Positions 22,090-38,126 of a stretch of 59,108 nucleotides of DNA are shown here, piece after piece. The DNA comes from Thermodesulfobacterium sp. (GTDB lineage Bacteria; Desulfobacterota; Thermodesulfobacteria; Thermodesulfobacteriales; Thermodesulfobacteriaceae). The translations under genes and the position numbers were made by a program. Every line of letters starts with the position of its first letter. The first letter of the stretch is position 1. The notes below the pieces were generated by a model. The model had not been told where the DNA came from, made no database searches, and worked only from the letters and a program-made list of their open reading frames with translations. The stretch is taken from the NCBI GenBank assembly GCA_017656385.1, contig JACDNX010000011.1, positions 1-59,108 of the forward strand. Direction: 5' to 3'.

Positions 22090-22945
22090 ACCAGTATTGC
22101 TAAAAGAAGTGCTGGAGTGGTTGGATGTGAAAGAAAATAAAATTTATGTAGATGGAACTGTTGGACTCGGTGGACACAGCTCCGCTATTTTGGAAGCCTC
22201 CAAACCATCTGGAATTCTCTATGGTTTTGAATGGAACGAAGATTCTTTCAAAATAGCCAAAGAAAGACTAAAAAAGTACAAAGAAAGAGTAAAGTTATAT
22301 AATAAAAACTTTGTTTATATTAAAGAAATTCTTCAAAAAGAAAATGTATTAACAGACGGAGTTCTTTTAGATCTTGGAATCTCTTCCTTTCTTTTAGAAG
22401 GAAGTAAAAGAGGATTCTCCTTTCAAAAAAGTGAACCTCTTGATATGAGAATGAATTTATCTTTAAAAATTACTGCCAAGGATATACTCAATAATTACGA
22501 TTTCATAAAGTTAAGCAATGTATTTAAAAAGGGAGAAGTTCCCAGAGCAGAGAAATTTGCTAAATTTATCTGTGAGAAAAGAAAGAAAAAACCTTTTAAA
22601 TTAACTCAAGATTTAGTAGAAGCAGTAAAGGAATTCTATAAAACCTCTAAAAAAAATCTGCTGGCGATTGTTTTTCAAAGCCTCAGAATAGAAGTAAATA
22701 AAGAACTTGAGAATTTAGAAACTGTTTTAAAAGATATTCCTGATATTTTAAAACCTTCGGGTAGGATAGCGATTATCTCTTTTCATTCTTTGGAAGACAG
22801 ATTGGTCAAAAATTTTTTCAAAAATGATCCGAGAATCAAAGTTCTTACTAAAAAACCCATTACACCCTCTGAAGAAGAACTTAAAAGAAATCCAAGAGCA
22901 AGAAGTGCAAAAATGAGAGTGGGAGAAAAAGTAAATGAACAATAA
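22076..22945 (+). CDS. rsmH: 16S rRNA m4C1402 methyltransferase, apparent AUU start
   Basis: SAM-dependent N4-methylation of C1402 in 16S rRNA. Visible: GTVGLGGHS (SAM loop), LDLGISSFLL, DMRM, and the C-terminal FHSLEDRLVKNFF and NPRARSAKMRV. The first ATG/GTG/TTG-type codon is TTG at 22097, but the frame is open upstream and encodes YHHEPVLLKEVLEWLD, the conserved family N-terminus, before a stop at 22070. The only well-placed start is ATT at 22076, 6 nt after AGGAG. That choice gives 289 aa, close to family length, and overlaps mraZ by 14 bp. TTG at 22097 is the fallback. Confidence 0.9.
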   Translation: MYHHEPVLLKEVLEWLDVKENKIYVDGTVGLGGHSSAILEASKPSGILYGFEWNEDSFKIAKERLKKYKERVKLYNKNFVYIKEILQKENVLTDGVLLDLGISSFLLEGSKRGFSFQKSEPLDMRMNLSLKITAKDILNNYDFIKLSNVFKKGEVPRAEKFAKFICEKRKKKPFKLTQDLVEAVKEFYKTSKKNLLAIVFQSLRIEVNKELENLETVLKDIPDILKPSGRIAIISFHSLEDRLVKNFFKNDPRIKVLTKKPITPSEEELKRNPRARSAKMRVGEKVNEQ

Positions 22946-23282
22946 AACCCTGATTTATAAACCAAGTGTAGATTACTATCATACCAATAAAAAAACCAAT
23001 GCTAAAAGTGAAATTGTCTCCTTAAAGGAGCGGGTTAAGATTTTTTTAGAAAATCTATTAATTCTTCTTTTGGGCATCTCAATTTTTGTTTTAAGTGTTG
23101 GAATAGCTTATAACACCTATATTTTAGCGAAGTTAAAAGTGAAAAAACTTTCTTTGTTAAAAGAAAACAAAGCTTTAAGAAAAGAGTATCAATATTTAAC
23201 TTCAAGAGAAGTTGTTTTAAAAAAAGCTAAAAAATTAAACCTTTATCCACCTCAAAAAGGAGATTTAATTAAGCTGAAATAG
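22935..23282 (+). CDS. ftsL: FtsL-like cell division protein
   Basis: Small bitopic divisome protein: 115 aa with a ~38-residue cytoplasmic part, one membrane helix (about 39-66, LLILLLGISIFVLSVGIAY) and a short periplasmic coiled coil (LKVKKLSLLKENKALRKEY) ending in PPQKGDLIKL. Identification rests on topology, size and position between rsmH and ftsI. It overlaps rsmH by 11 bp. Confidence 0.75.
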   Translation: MNNKTLIYKPSVDYYHTNKKTNAKSEIVSLKERVKIFLENLLILLLGISIFVLSVGIAYNTYILAKLKVKKLSLLKENKALRKEYQYLTSREVVLKKAKKLNLYPPQKGDLIKLK

Positions 23283-23286
23283 GAAA

Positions 23287-24282
23287 ATGAAAAAACAGCA
23301 AAACTTCTTATTATTTTTGAGCCTTTTTTTACTTTTAGTAGTTTTAGTAATAAACTTTTCTGCAGAAAAGGTAACCGGAAAGTCTTCTGGACATAAAACA
23401 AAAAGAGGTTACATCTTTGATAGAAATTTACATCCCATTGCTATTTCCTTAGAAAACTATAAAGCCTATTACTATATAAAAAATAATTTTTTTCTCAGTT
23501 CTTCGGATTTGGAAATTCTCAAAAAGTATTTAGGTTCCACTATTAATCTATCTAAAAAAGGTATTATCCTTCTTTCAGAAGATTTGAGTTTAGAAGAAGT
23601 AGAAAGACTAAAAAAAGAAAAAAATGTAATTATAGAAAAAACCTTCAAAAGAAAGCTACTCCAACCTTACTTAAAAACACTGGTTGGAGAAACTTTTAAC
23701 GGATACGGAGTCTCTGGTTTGGAGAAGGTTTTTGATGAAAAACTGAGCATGGGGGAACCTCTTATCCTTTCTATTGATTTAAACTTAGAAAAAAAGATTT
23801 ATAATATAATCCATAACCTTAATCTCCCAGCTTTTGCAATAGCTATTTTTGATCTCTATACAGGAGAAGTATTAGGTTACATGGAAAGTGAAAATGCAAG
23901 GCTTTTTGATAATTATTATCCTTTGAGTTTTTTTGATCTTCCTCCCACAGAAATTAAAACTTTTAAATGGATTTTAGGAGAAAAACCAATTCTTAAAGAA
24001 AAGAATATAACCAAAATAAATACTTGGCACATTGCTAAATGGTATATGGATAAGGTGTGTAATGGTTCTCTTATCCCTACTGTGTTGCGCAGTCAAACTA
24101 AAGTGTGCGAACCAAATTTACAACTCTTTGAGAAAAATGAATACCACTATGCTCTCGGAAATATCTTTATTACAGTTGCTTTTAAAGATGACAAACTAAT
24201 CCTTACTTCATTTGCTTTAAATTCTCAGAATAATGAGCTATTAAACCAAAAAATACTAAACTATATATTAGCTCAATTATGA
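23287..24282 (+). CDS. FtsI/PBP3 homologue with a collapsed, catalytically dead transpeptidase domain
   Basis: Sits in the ftsI slot. An N-terminal membrane helix (6-24) is followed by the class B PBP pedestal: KRGYIFDRNLHPIA (39-52), GVSGLEKVFDEKL (141-153) and LSIDLNLEKK (161-170). IFDLYTGEVLGYM (187-199) is the usual entry to the transpeptidase fold. After that the enzyme falls apart: PPTEIK (219-224) replaces the PGSTFK nucleophile motif, only ~20 residues separate it from the TWHIAKWYMDKVCNGSLIP block (normally well over 100), and no SxN or KTG is present. At 331 aa it is ~200 short of FtsI. The frame is intact and overlaps murE by 4 bp, so it is expressed, perhaps as a structural divisome part. 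Confidence 0.8.
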   Translation: MKKQQNFLLFLSLFLLLVVLVINFSAEKVTGKSSGHKTKRGYIFDRNLHPIAISLENYKAYYYIKNNFFLSSSDLEILKKYLGSTINLSKKGIILLSEDLSLEEVERLKKEKNVIIEKTFKRKLLQPYLKTLVGETFNGYGVSGLEKVFDEKLSMGEPLILSIDLNLEKKIYNIIHNLNLPAFAIAIFDLYTGEVLGYMESENARLFDNYYPLSFFDLPPTEIKTFKWILGEKPILKEKNITKINTWHIAKWYMDKVCNGSLIPTVLRSQTKVCEPNLQLFEKNEYHYALGNIFITVAFKDDKLILTSFALNSQNNELLNQKILNYILAQL

Positions 24283-28268: not shown

Positions 28269-29672
28269 ATGAATTTAAAGAATAAAAAAGTTGTAGTTTT
28301 GGGATTTGGTAAAAGCGGAAAGGCAGCGGTAAGACTTCTTTTAAAACTTGGGGCAGAAGTGATTGTTTCTGAAGCTAAGGAGTTAGATGCTTTTTCTTCT
28401 GAAAATTTAGAACTTTTCAAATCTCAAGGAGTTTATTTTGAAACAGGAGGACATAGAAGGGAAACTCTTCTTTCTGCAGACCTTGTAATTACAAGTCCCG
28501 GAATTCCAAGAGAAGTATATACCGAATGCCTTAAAAAGGATATTCCTGTTATTGGTGAGATTGAACTTGCATGGCAATTCTTAAAAAATAAAGAAGAAAC
28601 CATTGCCATAACAGGCACAAATGGCAAAACAACTACCACTGCTATGGTTTCTGAACTCCTTAAGCTCTCAGGATACAAGGTTTTTACTGGTGGAAATTAT
28701 GGAATTCCTCTATCAGAATTGATAATTTCAGATGTTTCTGTAGATAAAATCGTTCTTGAAGTTTCAAGTTTTCAGCTGGAAAATATTCAGAGCTTTTCTC
28801 CCAGAGTTGGCATTCTTCTAAATATCAGTCCTGATCATTTGGAAAGATACTTTTCTTTTAAGGAGTATGCATACTATAAATACAGACTTTTTGAATACCA
28901 AAACAAAAACTGTTATGCTATTTTACCTTTTCAAGAAAAATGGTTTAATGATTTTAAAAACTTAATAAATGGACAGATTTTATTTTTTGATGAGAAGAAA
29001 AATGAAAGTGCAAAAGCTTATCTTAAGCCAAGTGAGATATCCTCTGAAGACGGTTTCATTATCAATTTAAAAGATAAAGAATTCTATTCCTTTTTTGGAT
29101 TTAAACTTCTTGGTATTCATAACAAAGTAAACTTTATGGTAGCAAGCTTAGGGGCAAGACTTTTGGGTTCAACTAAGGAAAGCATAGAGAAACTGATTAA
29201 TAAGTTTAGAGGATTTCCTCACAGATTAGAATACATAGGAGAGTTTGGAGGAGTTTATTTTATAAATGACTCAAAAGCAACCAATGTAGATGCAACTCTC
29301 CAAGCATTAAAAAGCCTTCCAGGTTCTGTAATTCTCATTCTTGGAGGAAAACACAAAGGTGCTTCTTACAGTCCCTTAATTCCTTATATAAAAGAAAAAG
29401 TAAAAATTTTAATTTTAATGGGTGAATCTCGTTTTATTATAGCTGAAGAACTGAACGGAGTTACAGAAACCTATATGAGTGAAACCTTAAGTGATGCAAC
29501 GCTTTTAGCTATAAAGTGTGCCAAACCAGGAGATATAGTCCTTCTTTCTCCAGCCTGTTCAAGTTTTGACCAGTTTAACGATTATAAGGAAAGAGGAGAA
29601 GTTTTCAGAAGATTAATTTTAACTCAAGCTCCTTTACATTTTAAGGAAAAGAAGGAGGAACTACTTCATTGA
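28269..29672 (+). CDS. murD: UDP-MurNAc-L-alanine--D-glutamate ligase
   Basis: Adds D-Glu to UDP-MurNAc-L-Ala. 467 aa, slightly longer than many. Rossmann-like N-terminus VVVLGFGKSGKAA, ATP loop ITGTNGKTTTT (near 112-122), LEVSSFQLE, ISPDHLERY, HRLEYIGEFGGVYFINDSKATN, and the C-terminal LLSPACSSFDQF. The next gene is murG, overlapping by 4 bp, leaving no room for the ftsW that usually lies here. Confidence 0.97.
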   Translation: MNLKNKKVVVLGFGKSGKAAVRLLLKLGAEVIVSEAKELDAFSSENLELFKSQGVYFETGGHRRETLLSADLVITSPGIPREVYTECLKKDIPVIGEIELAWQFLKNKEETIAITGTNGKTTTTAMVSELLKLSGYKVFTGGNYGIPLSELIISDVSVDKIVLEVSSFQLENIQSFSPRVGILLNISPDHLERYFSFKEYAYYKYRLFEYQNKNCYAILPFQEKWFNDFKNLINGQILFFDEKKNESAKAYLKPSEISSEDGFIINLKDKEFYSFFGFKLLGIHNKVNFMVASLGARLLGSTKESIEKLINKFRGFPHRLEYIGEFGGVYFINDSKATNVDATLQALKSLPGSVILILGGKHKGASYSPLIPYIKEKVKILILMGESRFIIAEELNGVTETYMSETLSDATLLAIKCAKPGDIVLLSPACSSFDQFNDYKERGEVFRRLILTQAPLHFKEKKEELLH

Positions 29673-30751
29673 AATGGCTTATTGTTGCTGGAGGAACAGG
29701 AGGGCATATTATACCAGGTGTGGCTGTGGCTCAACAACTATTAAAATTACAAAGAGAAGTATACTTTGTTTCAGGGACAAGAAAAGTAGAAGAAACAATT
29801 TTAAAAAATAAGCCTTTTAAAGTTTATACACTGGATGTAGAAGGTTTTGTAGGAAGATCTTTTAAAAATAAGATTAGAGCGTTTATGAAAATGATTAAAG
29901 CTATAGCTAAAGCTTATAAAATTGTTAATGACTTAAATCCTCATATAATACTTGCTACAGGAGGATATATTTCTTTTCCAGTGGTGCTTGTAGGGAAAAT
30001 AAAAGGTAAAAAATTAGGGCTTCACGAACAAAATATTGAACCAGGAATAGCAAACAAAGTTTTAAGCTATATGGTAGACAAAATTTTTGTAAGTATGGAA
30101 GAAAGCAAAAATTACTTTCCTAAGGAAAAGGTGGTCTTTTCAGGAAATCCTGTAAGAGAAGACATTTTAAATCTAAAACCAAGGGAGCACTCAGGAAAGG
30201 GTTTATTAATCTTAGGAGGAAGCTTGGGAGCAAGATTTATAAATGAGCTTGCTATAAAATTTGTGCCTCTGCTTTTAGACGAATTTAAGGATCTTTTAAT
30301 TATCCATCAAACAGGTTTGGATGATTTTGAAAGAGTAAATAATGAATACAAAAAATTGATTAAAAAAGAGCATGAAACTCGTTTAAAGGTTTTTCCCTTT
30401 ATAGAAGATATGAGCTGGGCTTATTCTCAGGTTGATTTATTTATGGGAAGATGCGGAGCTACAACTCTTGCTGAACTTTTTGCAGTTGGATTACCCGCTA
30501 TTTTTATTCCCTTTCCTTATGCTACCCGAAATCATCAGGAAAAAAATGCAAAAATTGTAGCTCAAAAAGGTGGTGCTATTTTAATAAGGCAGAAAGAAGC
30601 AACTCCTGAGGTTGTTTTAAAAGAAATTAAAGACCTGCTTAAAAATGAGGAAAAATTAAAAAGCATGTCTCAAATTATGAAAAGTTTTTACACCCCTGCT
30701 CCACAAAAAATAATTATAAATGAACTGGAGGAACTAATAAAAAATGGCTAA
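29669..30751 (+). CDS. murG: UDP-GlcNAc--lipid I GlcNAc transferase
   Basis: Converts lipid I to lipid II at the inner face of the membrane. 360 aa GT-B glycosyltransferase: GGTGGHIIPGVAVA (8-21), TGGYISFPVVL, HEQNIEPGIANK, GGSLGARFINE, and the UDP-GlcNAc site GRCGATTLAELFAVGLPAIFIP. The start is TTG, 10 nt after GGAGG and overlapping the murD stop. It overlaps murC by 8 bp. Confidence 0.97.
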   Translation: MKWLIVAGGTGGHIIPGVAVAQQLLKLQREVYFVSGTRKVEETILKNKPFKVYTLDVEGFVGRSFKNKIRAFMKMIKAIAKAYKIVNDLNPHIILATGGYISFPVVLVGKIKGKKLGLHEQNIEPGIANKVLSYMVDKIFVSMEESKNYFPKEKVVFSGNPVREDILNLKPREHSGKGLLILGGSLGARFINELAIKFVPLLLDEFKDLLIIHQTGLDDFERVNNEYKKLIKKEHETRLKVFPFIEDMSWAYSQVDLFMGRCGATTLAELFAVGLPAIFIPFPYATRNHQEKNAKIVAQKGGAILIRQKEATPEVVLKEIKDLLKNEEKLKSMSQIMKSFYTPAPQKIIINELEELIKNG

Positions 30752-32138: not shown

Positions 32139-33039
32139 GGATTTGGATAAAAAACTGAAAGAACTAAAAATAAATTTTAAAACTGATGAACCTTTGTCCT
32201 CTTACACAAGCATTAAAATAGGGGGACCTTGCAAAAGAATGATTTTCCCTGAAAGGGAAGAAAGTTTGTTAAAAATTATAGATTTTATGGAAGAAAAAGG
32301 GATACCTTTTTTTCTTTTAGGAGGAGGTAGTAAGCTTTTAATTTCAGATAGAGGATTTGAAGGAGTAGTTATTAATTTGTGTAGTCTTAAAAAAAGGGAA
32401 ATTATTGGAGAAAATGAGAAAAAAATTTTTTTAAAGATACTTGCAGGCACAAGGATTAATGAAATTATAGGTTTGGGGATTAAAAAAGGATTTGGAGGAA
32501 TTGAGTTTTTGGGAGGAATTCCTGCTACCTTAGGTGGGGCTATAAAAATGAATGCAGGAGCTTTTGGATATACGATATCTCAACTGGTTAAAAAGATAAA
32601 AATTTATAAAAACGGAGAAATAAAAATTATAGACTCTACAGATTCACTATGGGAATATAGAAAGTTTAAAGAAAGTGGAATTGTTCTTGGTGCAGAACTT
32701 GAGTTAAAAAAAATGAAAACAGAAGAAATAAAAAAAAGGCTTAAAGAGTATTTAGAAAAAAGAAGAAAAATGCAGCCTCTATTTGAAAAAACCTTTGGTT
32801 CTGTTTTCAAAAATCCAGCTTCTTCTTATGCAGGTGCACTTATAGAATCTTGCAATTTGAAAGGGTATCAGATAGGTAATGCTAAGATTTCGGAAAAACA
32901 TGCTAATTTTATAGTAAATCTTGGAGGAGCAAAAGCTACCGATGTTTTAAAGCTTATGAAACTTGCTCAGGAAAGAGTGTTTAAGAAATTCGGAATAATA
33001 CTTGAACCGGAGGTGAACTTTTTAGGATGCCAACTGTAA
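32128..33039 (+). CDS. murB: UDP-N-acetylenolpyruvoylglucosamine reductase
   Basis: FAD enzyme that reduces UDP-GlcNAc-enolpyruvate to UDP-MurNAc. 303 aa. SSYTSIKIGGPC at the N-terminus, FLLGGGSKLLISD (FAD pyrophosphate site), GGIEFLGGIPATLGGAIKMNAGAFG, the proton-donor region FGSVFKNP, and the C-terminal HANFIVNLGGA plus the Glu of ILEPEVNFLG. It overlaps ftsQ by 13 bp. Confidence 0.97.
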   Translation: MWFKDLDKKLKELKINFKTDEPLSSYTSIKIGGPCKRMIFPEREESLLKIIDFMEEKGIPFFLLGGGSKLLISDRGFEGVVINLCSLKKREIIGENEKKIFLKILAGTRINEIIGLGIKKGFGGIEFLGGIPATLGGAIKMNAGAFGYTISQLVKKIKIYKNGEIKIIDSTDSLWEYRKFKESGIVLGAELELKKMKTEEIKKRLKEYLEKRRKMQPLFEKTFGSVFKNPASSYAGALIESCNLKGYQIGNAKISEKHANFIVNLGGAKATDVLKLMKLAQERVFKKFGIILEPEVNFLGCQL

Positions 33040-33767
33040 CAGGAAAAATTAAATATCTAATTAAAAATAGACTTTTGTGGATTCTTACAGCTGTGCTATT
33101 TTCTCTTATTTTAATAATTTATTTACTTTATTTTACTGATCTTTTTATACTAAAGGAAGTTAGGGTGATTAATAATAAAAAGGTTGGGAAAAAAGAAATT
33201 ATAGCATTAACTGGTCTAAAAGGAGGAGAAAGACTTTTCTCAATACCTATTGATAAAATAAAAAAAAGAATTCTTCTTAATCCAAAAATTGAAAAAGTGG
33301 TTATAGCAAAACGTCTTCCCTATACACTTGAGATCAAAATAAAAGAAAGAGAACCTCTTGCAATTATTACCGTAGACAATAAAGGTTACCTCATAGATAA
33401 AAACGGAATTATTATAGATACTATTTTACCTGAAGATTATCAGTTTTATCCTGTAGTTGAAATTAAAAATAAAAAATTTAAAGATAAGTTTTTAAATTTT
33501 TTAGTTTGGTTAAAAAATCATAAAAATTATTTACCTGTTTACGAAAACTTAGCAAAGGCTATCTTGGAAGAAGATAAATTAATTTTTGTCACCAAGAATA
33601 ATATAAAAATTTATTTTCCACTTTTTTCAGAAAAAGACTGGACATACTTTTATAAAAATTTGGATAGAATAATGGCTTACTTATATGAGAAAGAGTTAAT
33701 TGAAAAAGTGGAGCTTATAAGGTTAGATTATCCCTTAGGTTCTGCATTAATAAAATTCAGGAGTTGA
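33027..33767 (+). CDS. ftsQ: cell division protein FtsQ
   Basis: Bitopic divisome scaffold. 246 aa: a ~14-residue cytoplasmic tail, a membrane helix (about 15-38, LLWILTAVLFSLILIIYLLY), a POTRA domain (LFILKEVRVINNKKVGKKEI ... NPKIEKVVIAKRLPYTLEIKI) and the FtsQ-type beta domain (REPLAIITVDNKGYLIDKNG). The position before ftsA supports the call. Confidence 0.9.
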   Translation: MPTVTGKIKYLIKNRLLWILTAVLFSLILIIYLLYFTDLFILKEVRVINNKKVGKKEIIALTGLKGGERLFSIPIDKIKKRILLNPKIEKVVIAKRLPYTLEIKIKEREPLAIITVDNKGYLIDKNGIIIDTILPEDYQFYPVVEIKNKKFKDKFLNFLVWLKNHKNYLPVYENLAKAILEEDKLIFVTKNNIKIYFPLFSEKDWTYFYKNLDRIMAYLYEKELIEKVELIRLDYPLGSALIKFRS

Positions 33768-33770
33768 TAA

Positions 33771-35015
33771 ATGGGAAGAGAAAGAGGTATTCTGGTTGTT
33801 GATGTAGGCACTACCAAAGTATGTGCTCTTATAGGAGAAGAGAAAGAGGAAAAGTTATGGGTTACAGGAATGGGTATAGCTCCTTCAAGAGGACTTAAAA
33901 AGGGGACCATAATAAATATAGATGAGGCTACACAAAGTATAAAAGAGGCTATAGAGAAGGCTCAATCTCAGGCTAAGGTTTCTATAGAAAGTATTTATAC
34001 CAGCATTGCAGGAAGTCATATTAAAACACTTTCCAGCTCAGGTGTAGTTGCTTTAAAAGAAAAAATAGTTACTCCGGCTGAGGTAGAAGAAGTTCTCTAT
34101 TCTGCTCAAGCTGTAGAGCTTCCACAAGATAGAACCATCTTGCATGTAATCCCTCAGGAATTTATAGTTGATCAAGCAAGGGGAATAATTCAACCTGTTG
34201 GAATGTCTGGAGTAAGACTGGAAGCACATGTCCGGTTGATTACTTGCAATCGCTCTAATCTTCAAAATTTACTAAGATGCTTTGAGAATCTGGATTTAGA
34301 AGTAGATGGTGTCATTTTTCAAGGATTAGCTTCTGGAGAAGGAGTATTAACTTCTGAGGAGAAAGAATTAGGAGTTATATTAATTGATCTTGGTGGTGGA
34401 ACTACTGATGTAGCAATCTACTGGGATAATGTCTTAAGATATGTATTTTCTCTACCTGTTGGAGGAGAGCTTCTTACCAATGATCTTGCTGTAGGTTTAA
34501 GAACCTCAAGAAAAGAAGCAGAGAAATTAAAAATTGAAAATGGAGTTTGTGTAAGAGAACTTGTAGATGATGAAGAAATTATTGAGGTTCCAGGAATAGG
34601 AGATCGTCCCCCTAAAAAAGTAAATAAAAAAATTCTGGCAGAAATTTTGGAACCACGGATAAGAGAGCTTTTTGAACTGATTGAAAAAGAATTACAGGCA
34701 CAGACCCTTTATGAGGAAGATATTATTGATATTAAATCCAAAGCAGGAAGTGGAATAGTAATAACTGGAGGCTCTGCTCTTCTTCCCGGTATTATATATT
34801 TAGCTGAACAAATATTTAACTTGCCAGCAAGGATTGGATATCCTTTGAAACTTGCCGGACTCGCTGAAGAAACTTATCATCCTCAATTTGCTACTTCTGT
34901 GGGAATGCTTTCCTATGTTTATAGTGGTTTAAAAGAAAAAATAAAAGAAGATAAAAAGGAAAGATTAATTGAAAAATTAAAAAAAAGTTTTTTAAAATTT
35001 ATAAAAGGGGGCTAA
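33771..35015 (+). CDS. ftsA: cell division protein FtsA
   Basis: Actin-like ATPase that ties FtsZ filaments to the membrane. 414 aa. ILVVDVGTTKVCALIGE (7-23) is the phosphate-1 loop; the SHI(K)TLSSSG 1C subdomain region, VILIDLGGGTTDVAIY (phosphate 2) and VITGGSALLPGI (adenosine motif) follow. The Lys-rich C-terminus (LIEKLKKSFLKFIKGG) is an amphipathic membrane-targeting helix. It lies 3 bp after ftsQ and 3 bp before ftsZ. Confidence 0.97.
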   Translation: MGRERGILVVDVGTTKVCALIGEEKEEKLWVTGMGIAPSRGLKKGTIINIDEATQSIKEAIEKAQSQAKVSIESIYTSIAGSHIKTLSSSGVVALKEKIVTPAEVEEVLYSAQAVELPQDRTILHVIPQEFIVDQARGIIQPVGMSGVRLEAHVRLITCNRSNLQNLLRCFENLDLEVDGVIFQGLASGEGVLTSEEKELGVILIDLGGGTTDVAIYWDNVLRYVFSLPVGGELLTNDLAVGLRTSRKEAEKLKIENGVCVRELVDDEEIIEVPGIGDRPPKKVNKKILAEILEPRIRELFELIEKELQAQTLYEEDIIDIKSKAGSGIVITGGSALLPGIIYLAEQIFNLPARIGYPLKLAGLAEETYHPQFATSVGMLSYVYSGLKEKIKEDKKERLIEKLKKSFLKFIKGG

Positions 35016-35018
35016 ATA

Positions 35019-36137
35019 ATGGGTGGTCCTTTTGAGTTGTTAGATGATGAAATAAAAGTTCAACCCAATATAAAAGTAGTTGGTGTCGGAGGAGCAGGAG
35101 GTAATGCAGTAGCAAATATGATAAAGAATAAATTACAAGGAGTGGAATTTATTGCAGCAAATACAGACTATAGAGTTCTGGATCTCAATCCTGCTCCTCT
35201 AAAAATACAATTGGGTAAAAAGTTAACCAAAGGGTTAGGAGCAGGTGGAAAGCCTGAAATTGGTAGACAGGCAGCTGAAGAAAGTGAAAGAGAAATAAGG
35301 GATGTGTTGAAAGATGCAGATATGGTTTTTATTGCTGCAGGAATGGGAGGAGGAACAGGAACAGGAGCTGCTCCTGTAATAGCAAACATTTGTAAAGATC
35401 TGGGAGCCTTAACTATTGCAGTTGTTACCAAACCTTTTTCTTTTGAAGGAAAATTTAGAATGAAAGTTGCTGAACAGGGCTTAGAAGAATTAAGAAAACA
35501 TGTGGATACGCTTATTACTATTCCTAATGACAAACTTCTCACTCTTGGTTCTCCTCAAGATAGGCTTGCAGATATGTTTAAAAAAGCAGACGATGTATTA
35601 TATTATGCAGTAAGAGGGATTTCTGATTTGATTCTTTCTCCTGGATATATAAACCTTGATTTTGCAGATGTTAAGGCATTGATGAGTGAAAGTGGAGGTA
35701 CGGCTTTGATGGGTATGGGAGAAGCAAAAGGAGAAGACAGAGCAGAAGTGGCAACACAAATGGCTATCTGTAGCCCTCTTTTGGAGGATATTTCTATTTC
35801 CGGAGCTAAAGGGATTTTATTAAATATAAGTGTTCACCCTGATACCTTAACCATTCACGAAACCCAGATAATTACAAGTACCATTTCCAAGGAACTACAT
35901 CCTGATGCTAAGGTTTATTGGGGAGTTGTCTTTGATGAAAGGCTGGAAGATTGCCTTAGAGTTACTGTAATAGCTACAGGTCTTGAAAAACCTCAGGAAA
36001 AAGAAAGAAAAGAAAAGATAATAAAAATGGATGAAGGAATAAAGAGGAAAGGAGAAAAACAGAAAAAAAGCGTTTTTAATCTTTTTGACGAAGAGATTTT
36101 AGATATACCCACCTTCCTCAGGAGAAATGCAGATTAA
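35019..36137 (+). CDS. ftsZ: cell division protein FtsZ
   Basis: Tubulin-like GTPase that forms the division ring. 372 aa. [12 protein letters not shown] near the start, the tubulin signature [13 protein letters not shown] (about 109-121), synergy (T7) loop [11 protein letters not shown], and a short linker ending in the conserved tail DIPTFLRR that binds FtsA. Normal length. No promoter is evident within the preceding 20 genes' tight spacing, so much transcription may come from mraZ. Confidence 0.98.
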
Positions 36138-36153
36138 TGAGGGAGGTGATAAC

Positions 36154-36933
36154 ATGATTGAAATTGCCACTTTTGAAGATCCTGTAAAAAAACATCCTCT
36201 AAAATTAGCTTTATTTAATATTGACGAAGTGTTGAGCCCCCCCTTTCAGAGAGATATTTCTGAAAGCTTAAAAAAACATCTGGAGATGGCCATAGAAAAA
36301 CTTGGTTTTTTAACTCCTATAGTAGTTGTCCCAAAAGATGGTAAATACTACGTGATTGACGGAATGCACAGACTTGAAGCTATGAGAGAACTCGGAGCAA
36401 GAGAAATTCTGGGCATTGTAGTTGATGAAAGTCTTTACCACTACATCCTTGAATTTAATACCGAAAAACCGCCCAATGTGAAAGAAAAATCCAAGCAGAC
36501 CTATAGGCTTTATCAGGACTTATTAGCCCAGGAGCCTGATTTAGTTGAGGAGGACCTGTTTACTTATTTTAAGGATCCTGTTTTTATTACTTTCGGTTTT
36601 GCTATAGAAGAATTTGATGCCAGATTCCCTGCAAGTTTTTATGAAAGCTTTGTTTCTAAAATTGATAACTTTCTGGGTATGCCTTTAAGTGAAGCTGCTG
36701 AAGAGAGAAGAAAAAGAGCAGAAGCACTGATAGATTTAAATAGAGTGGTTAATGAAAAATATGCTGAATTAGGCTGGCAAAATGCTTTAATGAAAGGAGA
36801 AATAGTAAGAAAAAGTGTGCAAAAAGCTTACGGTGTAAGAGTTAGAACAATTGAGGAAGAGTTTTACACTGCTGTAGAAAGAGTAAAAGAAGCCTGTCAG
36901 AACTTAACATCAGAAGATTTTGGAGAGGTATGA
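36154..36933 (+). CDS. ParB N-terminal-like domain protein
   Basis: 259 aa. Residues about 20-100 resemble the ParB/Srx fold: PFQRDI, GFLTPIVVVPKDGKYYVIDGMHRLEAMRELGA, where DGxHRLEA is the CTP/nucleotide-binding box. No ParB helix-turn-helix centre is obvious; the C-terminal half is helical and charged. The start at 36154 is chosen because GGAGG lies 7 nt upstream; an earlier ATG at 36127 lies inside ftsZ. It overlaps the next gene by 4 bp. Its place directly after ftsZ suggests, but does not prove, a link to division or chromosome positioning. Confidence 0.7.
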   Translation: MIEIATFEDPVKKHPLKLALFNIDEVLSPPFQRDISESLKKHLEMAIEKLGFLTPIVVVPKDGKYYVIDGMHRLEAMRELGAREILGIVVDESLYHYILEFNTEKPPNVKEKSKQTYRLYQDLLAQEPDLVEEDLFTYFKDPVFITFGFAIEEFDARFPASFYESFVSKIDNFLGMPLSEAAEERRKRAEALIDLNRVVNEKYAELGWQNALMKGEIVRKSVQKAYGVRVRTIEEEFYTAVERVKEACQNLTSEDFGEV

Positions 36934-38126
36934 TAATGGATGCATCTTATAGACCCATTTTAAGATATGTAGATGTTATTCCTTCAAAGCATGAAGGTAA
37001 GCCTGTATTTTTACTAAGGGATCCTGTAGGTATTATTGAAGAAATTGTTGTAGTTCCTCAAAATGTGGCTTTCTTACTTCCTTTAATGGATGGTAAACAT
37101 GATCTAAGAGATCTTCAGGCTGAAGCTACAAAAAGATTTGGAGAAATTGTTCCTTTAGAAGAAATTACTAAAATTGTTAGTTTCCTTGACGAAAAAGGGC
37201 TTTTATGGAGTAAAAATTTTGAAGAAATAAAAAACAAAGCTTATAAAAACTGGTTTTCTCTACCTTTAAGACCTATGGCTCATGCTAATCAAGCCTATCC
37301 TCTTTCAGCTTCAGAAGCTCAATTTTTTGTGGAAGATATTTTAAAATTGTGCAAACCTGATTCTTCCAAACCTCCCAAAATTTTAATTGCGCCCCACATT
37401 GATCTTAAAGTAGGAGCTAAAGCCTTTGCAGAAAGTTACAGCAGATTTAAAATACCCTCTGGTTCAAGAGTAATTATTCTGGGAGTGGGACATCATCTGG
37501 ATCTTCCCTGGTCCATACTCACCAAAGATATAGCTACTCCTTTTGGAGTAGTTAAAAATGACCGAGGGGGTGTACTTTATCTTACCAAATCAAAAAAAAT
37601 TGATCTTTTCCCCAATCATATAGCTCATAAACTTGAACATTCTATTGAATTTCAGGTGCTTTTCCTTCACCACTTATTAAAAGATGAATTTGTGGTTCTC
37701 CCCTTTTTAGTGGGACCTATGATCACCTTTTTTGACAAAAAAACCAAAGACCTGGTAGAAAAATTTGTAGATAGTCTTATTGAATTGATAGACGATAGAA
37801 CTTATATTGTTTTAGGTATAGATTTCTGTCATCTGGGGCCAAGATACGGAGACCCCTTTGCAGTCAATGAAGGGCATATTAAAAAAGCACTTGAAACAGA
37901 TAAACAATTAATTGAAATTACTTTCAATGAATCACCAGAGGAATTTATAAACAAGACAAAAAATCTTGCTCCTATGAAAATATGTGGTCTTTCCTGCCTG
38001 TATCTGCTTAACCTTATTTTAAACAAAGCGGAGCTTGATGGTGAGTATAAAATCTACTATCAGGAAGCCCTACCCTTTGGACAGGGCTCTGTGGTATCCG
38101 TTGCTTCGGCAGGTTACTACTGCTAA
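36930..38126 (+). CDS. AmmeMemoRadiSam system protein B (MEMO1 family) with PqqD-like N-terminus
   Basis: 398 aa. Residues 1-95 resemble the PqqD-like domain of the group (LRDPVGIIEEIVVVPQN, LLPLMDGKHDLRDLQAEA). Residues about 145-398 are a MEMO fold related to extradiol dioxygenases: LIAPHIDLKVGAKAFAESY, VIILGVGHHL, ATPFGVVKND, HSIEFQVLFL, GIDFCHLGPRYGDP and QGSVVSVASAGY. In known genomes these proteins go with an AMMECR1 and a radical SAM partner; neither lies here. The biochemical role is unestablished. Last of the dcw-direction genes; it overlaps convergent trpF by 4 bp. Confidence 0.85.
   Translation: MIMDASYRPILRYVDVIPSKHEGKPVFLLRDPVGIIEEIVVVPQNVAFLLPLMDGKHDLRDLQAEATKRFGEIVPLEEITKIVSFLDEKGLLWSKNFEEIKNKAYKNWFSLPLRPMAHANQAYPLSASEAQFFVEDILKLCKPDSSKPPKILIAPHIDLKVGAKAFAESYSRFKIPSGSRVIILGVGHHLDLPWSILTKDIATPFGVVKNDRGGVLYLTKSKKIDLFPNHIAHKLEHSIEFQVLFLHHLLKDEFVVLPFLVGPMITFFDKKTKDLVEKFVDSLIELIDDRTYIVLGIDFCHLGPRYGDPFAVNEGHIKKALETDKQLIEITFNESPEEFINKTKNLAPMKICGLSCLYLLNLILNKAELDGEYKIYYQEALPFGQGSVVSVASAGYYC

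Follow-up and report, generated by a model that had tools for sequence, protein, structure and literature searches.

The FtsW–FtsI pair is treated as a near-universal engine of bacterial septation and, to our knowledge, departures from it have been studied mainly in a group of spore-forming clostridia. In C. difficile, vegetative division is carried out by a class A PBP, and RodA–PBP2, encoded beside mreBCD, elongates the cell (Shrestha et al. 2023, PMC10693644). In E. coli, PBP1b co-purifies with FtsW and PBP3 (PMC5324115) and is inhibited by FtsBLQ (PMC6325244). For the Desulfobulbaceae, the accessible part of one report describes four genomes in which ftsW is absent, with a largely preserved dcw cluster and an mre–pbpA–rodA cluster in Desulfobulbus; FtsI is considered to be still recruited there, and septal synthesis by FtsI activity is discussed (PMC7873302). 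That part of the report makes no mention of a lost FtsI active site or of its coupling to ftsW loss.

It was already known that Desulfobulbaceae lack ftsW and that C. difficile divides independently of FtsW/FtsI. Our literature search returned PMC7873302 as the sole paper with Desulfobulb*, FtsI and FtsW, and none that connects FtsI with both pseudoenzyme and divisome; within this partial coverage of the literature, we found no description of FtsI active-site loss, of a strict link between it and the loss of FtsW, or of a pseudo-FtsW.

Here we analysed a stretch of 59,108 nucleotides from Thermodesulfobacterium sp. (the window) together with genomes of its order and phylum. Like C. difficile, the order has no functional vegetative FtsW/FtsI pair, retains RodA–PBP2 beside mreBCD and has a class A PBP available, septation by a class A PBP being shown in C. 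difficile only (PMC10693644). Unlike the order, C. difficile keeps active dcw SEDS/bPBP genes (SpoVE/SpoVD), which are repurposed for sporulation (PMC10693644), whereas here FtsW is gone, FtsI is kept in a predicted non-catalytic form and the lineage lies outside the Firmicutes. With the Desulfobulbaceae and cable bacteria, as far as the accessible part of that report describes them, the order shares the absence of ftsW, a largely kept dcw cluster and an mre–pbpA–rodA cluster (PMC7873302).

The dcw cluster of the window lacks ftsW

The cluster runs mraZ–rsmH–ftsL–(FtsI slot)–murE–murF–mraY–murD–murG–murC–murB–ftsQ–ftsA–ftsZ, and its features relevant to septation are as follows:

22935..23282, + strand: ftsL, preceded by rsmH and followed by the ftsI slot (PF04999 match narrowly below threshold, E = 2.8e-4)
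23287..24282, + strand: pseudo-FtsI of 331 aa, filling the ftsI slot, with ftsL before it and murE after it (from fold, profiles and dN/dS)
28269..29672, + strand: murD (Mur_ligase_M and Mur_ligase_C)
29669..29672, + strand: overlap of the murD stop and murG start (TTGA, 4 bp), the usual place of ftsW; same junction in 20 genomes of the order
29669..30751, + strand: murG, with a TTG start (Glyco_transf_28 and Glyco_tran_28_C)
33027..33767, + strand: ftsQ (POTRA_1, E = 2.2e-12)
33771..35015, + strand: ftsA (from the ORF sequence; homologue in the same place in 20 relatives)
35019..36137, + strand: ftsZ (from the ORF sequence; homologue in the same place in 20 relatives)

murD ends with TGA at 29672, and the TTG of murG at 29669 is in frame with the murG start (MKWLIVAGGTGGH); an ATG close by is out of frame. 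The two genes thus overlap by 4 bp, which leaves no room for ftsW. We found the same tight junction in each of the 20 dcw clusters that we read in the order, several of them from complete one-contig genomes, so that the ftsW-less slot is fixed order-wide and reflects neither chance nor an assembly gap. An earlier note, made from this DNA alone, had claimed that ftsW is missing between murD and murG, that no SEDS protein occurs elsewhere in the 59 kb and that the rest of the dcw order is kept. All of this holds: the genome's sole PF01098 match is on another contig, and FtsZ, FtsA, FtsQ and FtsL are all in place.

Directly after ftsZ, the window encodes a ParB-N-like protein (36127–36933, a sub-threshold Pfam match), followed by a Memo-like protein (36930–38126). 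The ParB-N-like protein has 75–90% identity across g1, g2 and g6, mostly above that of ftsZ, and none was found at that place in g4, g5, f2 or f3. At two g5 loci, L109 (G035) and L112 (G037), the murG/murC and murD/murG regions have merged or broken open frames, possibly frameshifts or fusions.

FtsW has been lost, not relocated

The window is contig C11 of a 1.67-Mb genome in 44 contigs that is 100% complete. A PF01098 profile search of this genome gave one match only (contig C5, 99841–100842), in the gene context mreC–mreD–PBP2–rodA–atpF. A SEDS tree split cleanly into 65 RodA-type proteins and 40 dcw FtsW proteins (support 1.0), with the protein of the window genome among the RodA type. In the QPSEFxK and HTD motifs of RodA, the invariant residues are kept across the order. 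Each of the 41 order genomes has one SEDS gene (in two pieces in one genome), including seven one-contig genomes (G001, G007, G017, G020, G021, G026 and G035). The order includes Thermodesulfatator, the RodA of G006 being 100% identical to that of T. autotrophicus S606.

The FtsW state of this lineage is one of loss. The earlier note had suggested that the FtsW/FtsI pair was replaced or relocated; relocation falls, since the single SEDS gene is rodA by context and tree, and replacement stands, no canonical ftsW–ftsI pair having been found elsewhere in the genome. Relocation is ruled out by the single SEDS gene per genome together with the placement in the RodA part of the tree, and an assembly gap in the order by the closed junction and the one-SEDS, one-contig genomes. 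It is accordingly scarcely credible that FtsW and an active FtsI are present but missing from the assemblies or encoded elsewhere: the division of the window genome over 44 contigs would allow it, but the seven one-contig genomes and the closed murD–murG junction speak against it, as do the presumed gap cases in the phylum (G204 and G239, below), which also lack murG and have an intact FtsI.

The ftsI slot encodes an FtsI homologue without catalytic motifs

The 331-aa protein at FtsI's dcw position, between ftsL and murE, consists of a TM helix, a pedestal (PBP dimerisation) region and a shortened transpeptidase fold; a PASTA domain is absent. The SxxK, SxN and KTG motifs are all missing from it, and its Pfam search gave a sub-threshold PBP_dimer match and no PF00905 transpeptidase match. 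Its AlphaFold2 model (pLDDT 87.8) had FtsI/PBP3 as best structural matches, with a Z of 21.6 over 302 residues and 18% identity against P. aeruginosa PBP3 (7ony). Profile searches reached FtsI chains at about 1e-22 versus about 1e-14 for MrdA, and hhalign against intact FtsI gave 97.6% (E = 4e-12). The protein at 23287–24282 is thus FtsI by ancestry and predicted fold. Because the catalytic motifs are absent, we refer to it as pseudo-FtsI and not as a functional FtsI, in agreement with the dead FtsI homologue to which the earlier note refers.

The dN/dS of pseudo-FtsI (0.15–0.21; ftsL, 0.16–0.31; murE, 0.11–0.14) indicates purifying selection and not free decay, and the frame is open, in the same slot and without internal stops, in 20 of 20 clusters of the order. 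Within the order the protein shrinks stepwise, from 522 aa with PASTA (f2) through about 450 (f3) and about 385 (g4/g5) to about 330 aa with PASTA lost (g1, g2 and g6). Pairwise identity to the most distant order members is 15–19%.

Loss of FtsW is coupled to loss of the FtsI active site across the phylum

We read 131 dcw clusters from the order and the phylum, and recorded a full FtsW in the murD–murG slot as present or absent. Most of the 279 other phylum genomes sampled have two SEDS genes and about 58 have one; by neighbourhood, the gene was FtsW in the dcw cluster in 4 of 30 one-SEDS genomes and RodA in 26, nearly all adjoining PBP2. In clusters with FtsW and a readable FtsI, SxxK, SxN and KT[GS] were all present (60/60). 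In FtsW-less clusters, SxxK and KTG were each found in 0 of 63 and SxN in 1 of 63 (Fisher p = 1e-36, a value that ignores the relatedness of the genomes). G204 and G239 are the only two clusters that show an intact FtsI but no FtsW; both break off after mraY, and their assemblies are without murG, so that we took the missing FtsW as a presumed assembly gap and not as an exception. A loose regular expression for the triad matched five proteins from FtsW-less clusters, in which the motifs are absent at the aligned positions, and these matches were taken as chance.

The earlier note had proposed to look in related genomes for ftsW and the active site of FtsI being lost together; the two are fully coupled in every assessable cluster of the phylum. 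The loss of FtsW is shared with a large block of relatives, and in each FtsW-less lineage checked FtsI is kept in place and its active site, as judged from sequence, is gone.

Some individual genomes showed further features. G049 (f12) and G232 (f45) have two PF01098 matches each despite an FtsW-less dcw slot and a degenerate FtsI. G123 (f12, 99% complete) gave no SEDS match and three class A PBP-type matches; either the assembly has a gap there or RodA, too, may really be lost. Several FtsW-less families (f12, f46, f58, f70, f74, f88 and f89) have murE and murF joined in a single open frame of about 980–1045 aa, an apparent MurE–MurF fusion (L122–L126, L132, L138, L141 and L146). A small cysteine-rich, zinc-ribbon-like protein of about 60–75 aa lies between murD and murG in f12 and f56, in the former place of ftsW (loci L136:12164–12346, L138:11668–11892 and L141:11433–11636, in mraY orientation, L174 and L214).

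FtsW may have been lost three times, in one clade with a likely remnant

In a tree of concatenated dcw proteins, the FtsW-less genomes fall in three clades. Clade A (SH support 0.987) comprises the window's order, the Desulfobulbia-like families f12, f56, f68 and f89, and eight further families (f24, f40, f46, f52, f58, f70, f74 and f88); the RodA of f12 genomes is closest to that of Ca. Desulfobulbus rimicarensis. Clade B contains f21 and f45 (support 1.0), and clade C is f15, with the FtsW-containing f8 as its sister (0.996). A second tree also gave three changes. A single FtsW-less clade was not rejected by the AU test (p = 0.108), so three losses are our best estimate and not proven. The outcome is the same in all three losing lineages, FtsI being kept without its catalytic motifs.

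In clade B, the murD–murG slot holds a protein of 253–265 aa with 10 predicted TM helices (about 262 aa; L139:7587–8378 and L143:7694–8482, both on the − strand, and nine more loci). The AlphaFold2 model of the 262-aa protein (pLDDT 78.2) has the 10-TM SEDS fold: it matched FtsW (8p1u) with a Z of 20.0 over 258 residues, RodA (6bar) with 18.6 and WaaL with 11.4, and unrelated folds from 5.8 down. The PSExxK, HTD and YGG motifs are absent in 11 of 11 clade B slot proteins; there was no Pfam match, and hhalign to FtsW gave 5% only, which rules out proof from sequence that the protein is FtsW. With a sequence match lacking, the assignment as pseudo-FtsW rests on predicted fold and gene position, and the protein is likely what remains of FtsW, non-catalytic and kept next to an FtsI that is non-catalytic too. 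The pedestal of clade B pseudo-FtsI was not recognisable, which strains a single scaffold mechanism.

Compared with the canonical FtsW–FtsI pair (FtsWIQBL structures 8bh1 and 8p1u), pseudo-FtsI agrees with FtsI/PBP3 in fold and in dcw position, and the clade B protein has an FtsW-like predicted fold and the ftsW position. Unlike the canonical pair, neither has catalytic motifs, and in the window's order FtsW is entirely missing.

Candidate builders of the septum

With FtsW gone and FtsI dead, the division wall must come from another enzyme. The PF00905 matches of the window genome are PBP2, one class A PBP and a weak match to a D,D-carboxypeptidase-like protein. PBP2, encoded beside rodA, has intact STYK, SCD and KTGT motifs and is the sole full class B transpeptidase in the genome. 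The class A PBP (627 aa, contig C10) is bifunctional, with the motifs of both domains intact, and carries the genome's one PF00912 domain. The FtsW-less genomes tested retain RodA–PBP2 and at least one class A PBP, with one PF00912 domain in many and up to six in some Desulfobulbia-like genomes, and no consistent rise. As both systems remain, gene content was uninformative in choosing between them; with two synthase systems left, septal peptidoglycan has to come from one of them, unless an unknown enzyme exists.

Since FtsI is kept under selection without its catalytic motifs, it seems to persist as a divisome subunit that has no catalytic role. Once septation had stopped using FtsW, the protein was probably no longer needed, and the active site of FtsI would have been lost along with FtsW while the binding surfaces stayed. 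Pseudo-FtsI may still sit in the divisome with FtsL–FtsQ (and FtsB) through putative binding, and as a scaffold it could recruit another synthase to the FtsZ ring. Of the two candidates for building the septum, the class A PBP is slightly the likelier, favoured over RodA–PBP2 because of the C. difficile precedent, and RodA–PBP2 would elongate the cell beside MreC–MreD. We regard this combination, a non-catalytic FtsI scaffold with a class A PBP at the septum and RodA–PBP2 in elongation, as plausible if somewhat short of probable. Besides C. difficile, the binding of E. coli PBP1b to FtsW–PBP3 (PMC5324115) and to FtsBLQ (PMC6325244) lends it support. Against it counts that C. difficile can do without its dcw regulators when it divides vegetatively. 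On balance, we lean towards the broader view that the FtsWI pair was catalytically silenced in much of the phylum, seemingly up to three times, and survives as a structural scaffold (FtsI and, in one clade, FtsW plus FtsI) to which a class A or elongation synthase is recruited. A SEDS-like fold without motifs in the FtsW slot of clade B is what would be expected if the pair can serve in this way.

A lesser but real possibility is that RodA–PBP2, the only SEDS–bPBP pair left, builds both side wall and septum, perhaps handed over by pseudo-FtsI. The RodA motif residues are kept across the order, and the window genome's PBP2 has its catalytic motifs. RodA is also a paralogue of FtsW, so that activation of the FtsQLB type could be passed on to it more easily than to a class A PBP. 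However, in SEDS–bPBP complexes PBP2 is expected on the SEDS surface, where it would occupy what pseudo-FtsI needs, and rodA with mreC–mreD is the usual elongasome context. RodA–PBP2 also serves elongation only in the sole comparable organism tested (PMC10693644).

Two further readings give pseudo-FtsI or the known synthases no part in septation. Pseudo-FtsI could be a relic without a division role, in which case all that matters is FtsZ/FtsA and a class A PBP that acts independently of the divisome; its progressive shortening from 522 to about 330 aa and its low identity to the remotest order members would fit decay, but the conserved open frame in all 20 clusters, the dN/dS, the confidently predicted FtsI-like fold and its retention in all three losing lineages make this unlikely. 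We consider it more unlikely still that the septum is made by a polymerase or transpeptidase not recognised as such, for instance another membrane glycosyltransferase or an LD-transpeptidase. Other non-SEDS routes are in principle open to the divisome, but RodA, PBP2 and the class A PBP would in principle be enough.

Implications for division in the phylum

A whole lineage with the dcw order, FtsZ, FtsA, FtsQ and FtsL appears to run without FtsW/FtsI activity and to keep a dead FtsI. Such a lineage makes it testable whether FtsI has a structural role that can be told apart from its catalysis, and whether a divisome can be powered by a class A PBP or by RodA–PBP2. 'FtsI' annotations in many genomes of the phylum should be read neither as a septal transpeptidase nor as an FtsI-specific beta-lactam target. 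If true, a divisome built around silenced enzymes would be a natural experiment that sets apart what FtsWI does as a structure and what it does as an enzyme.
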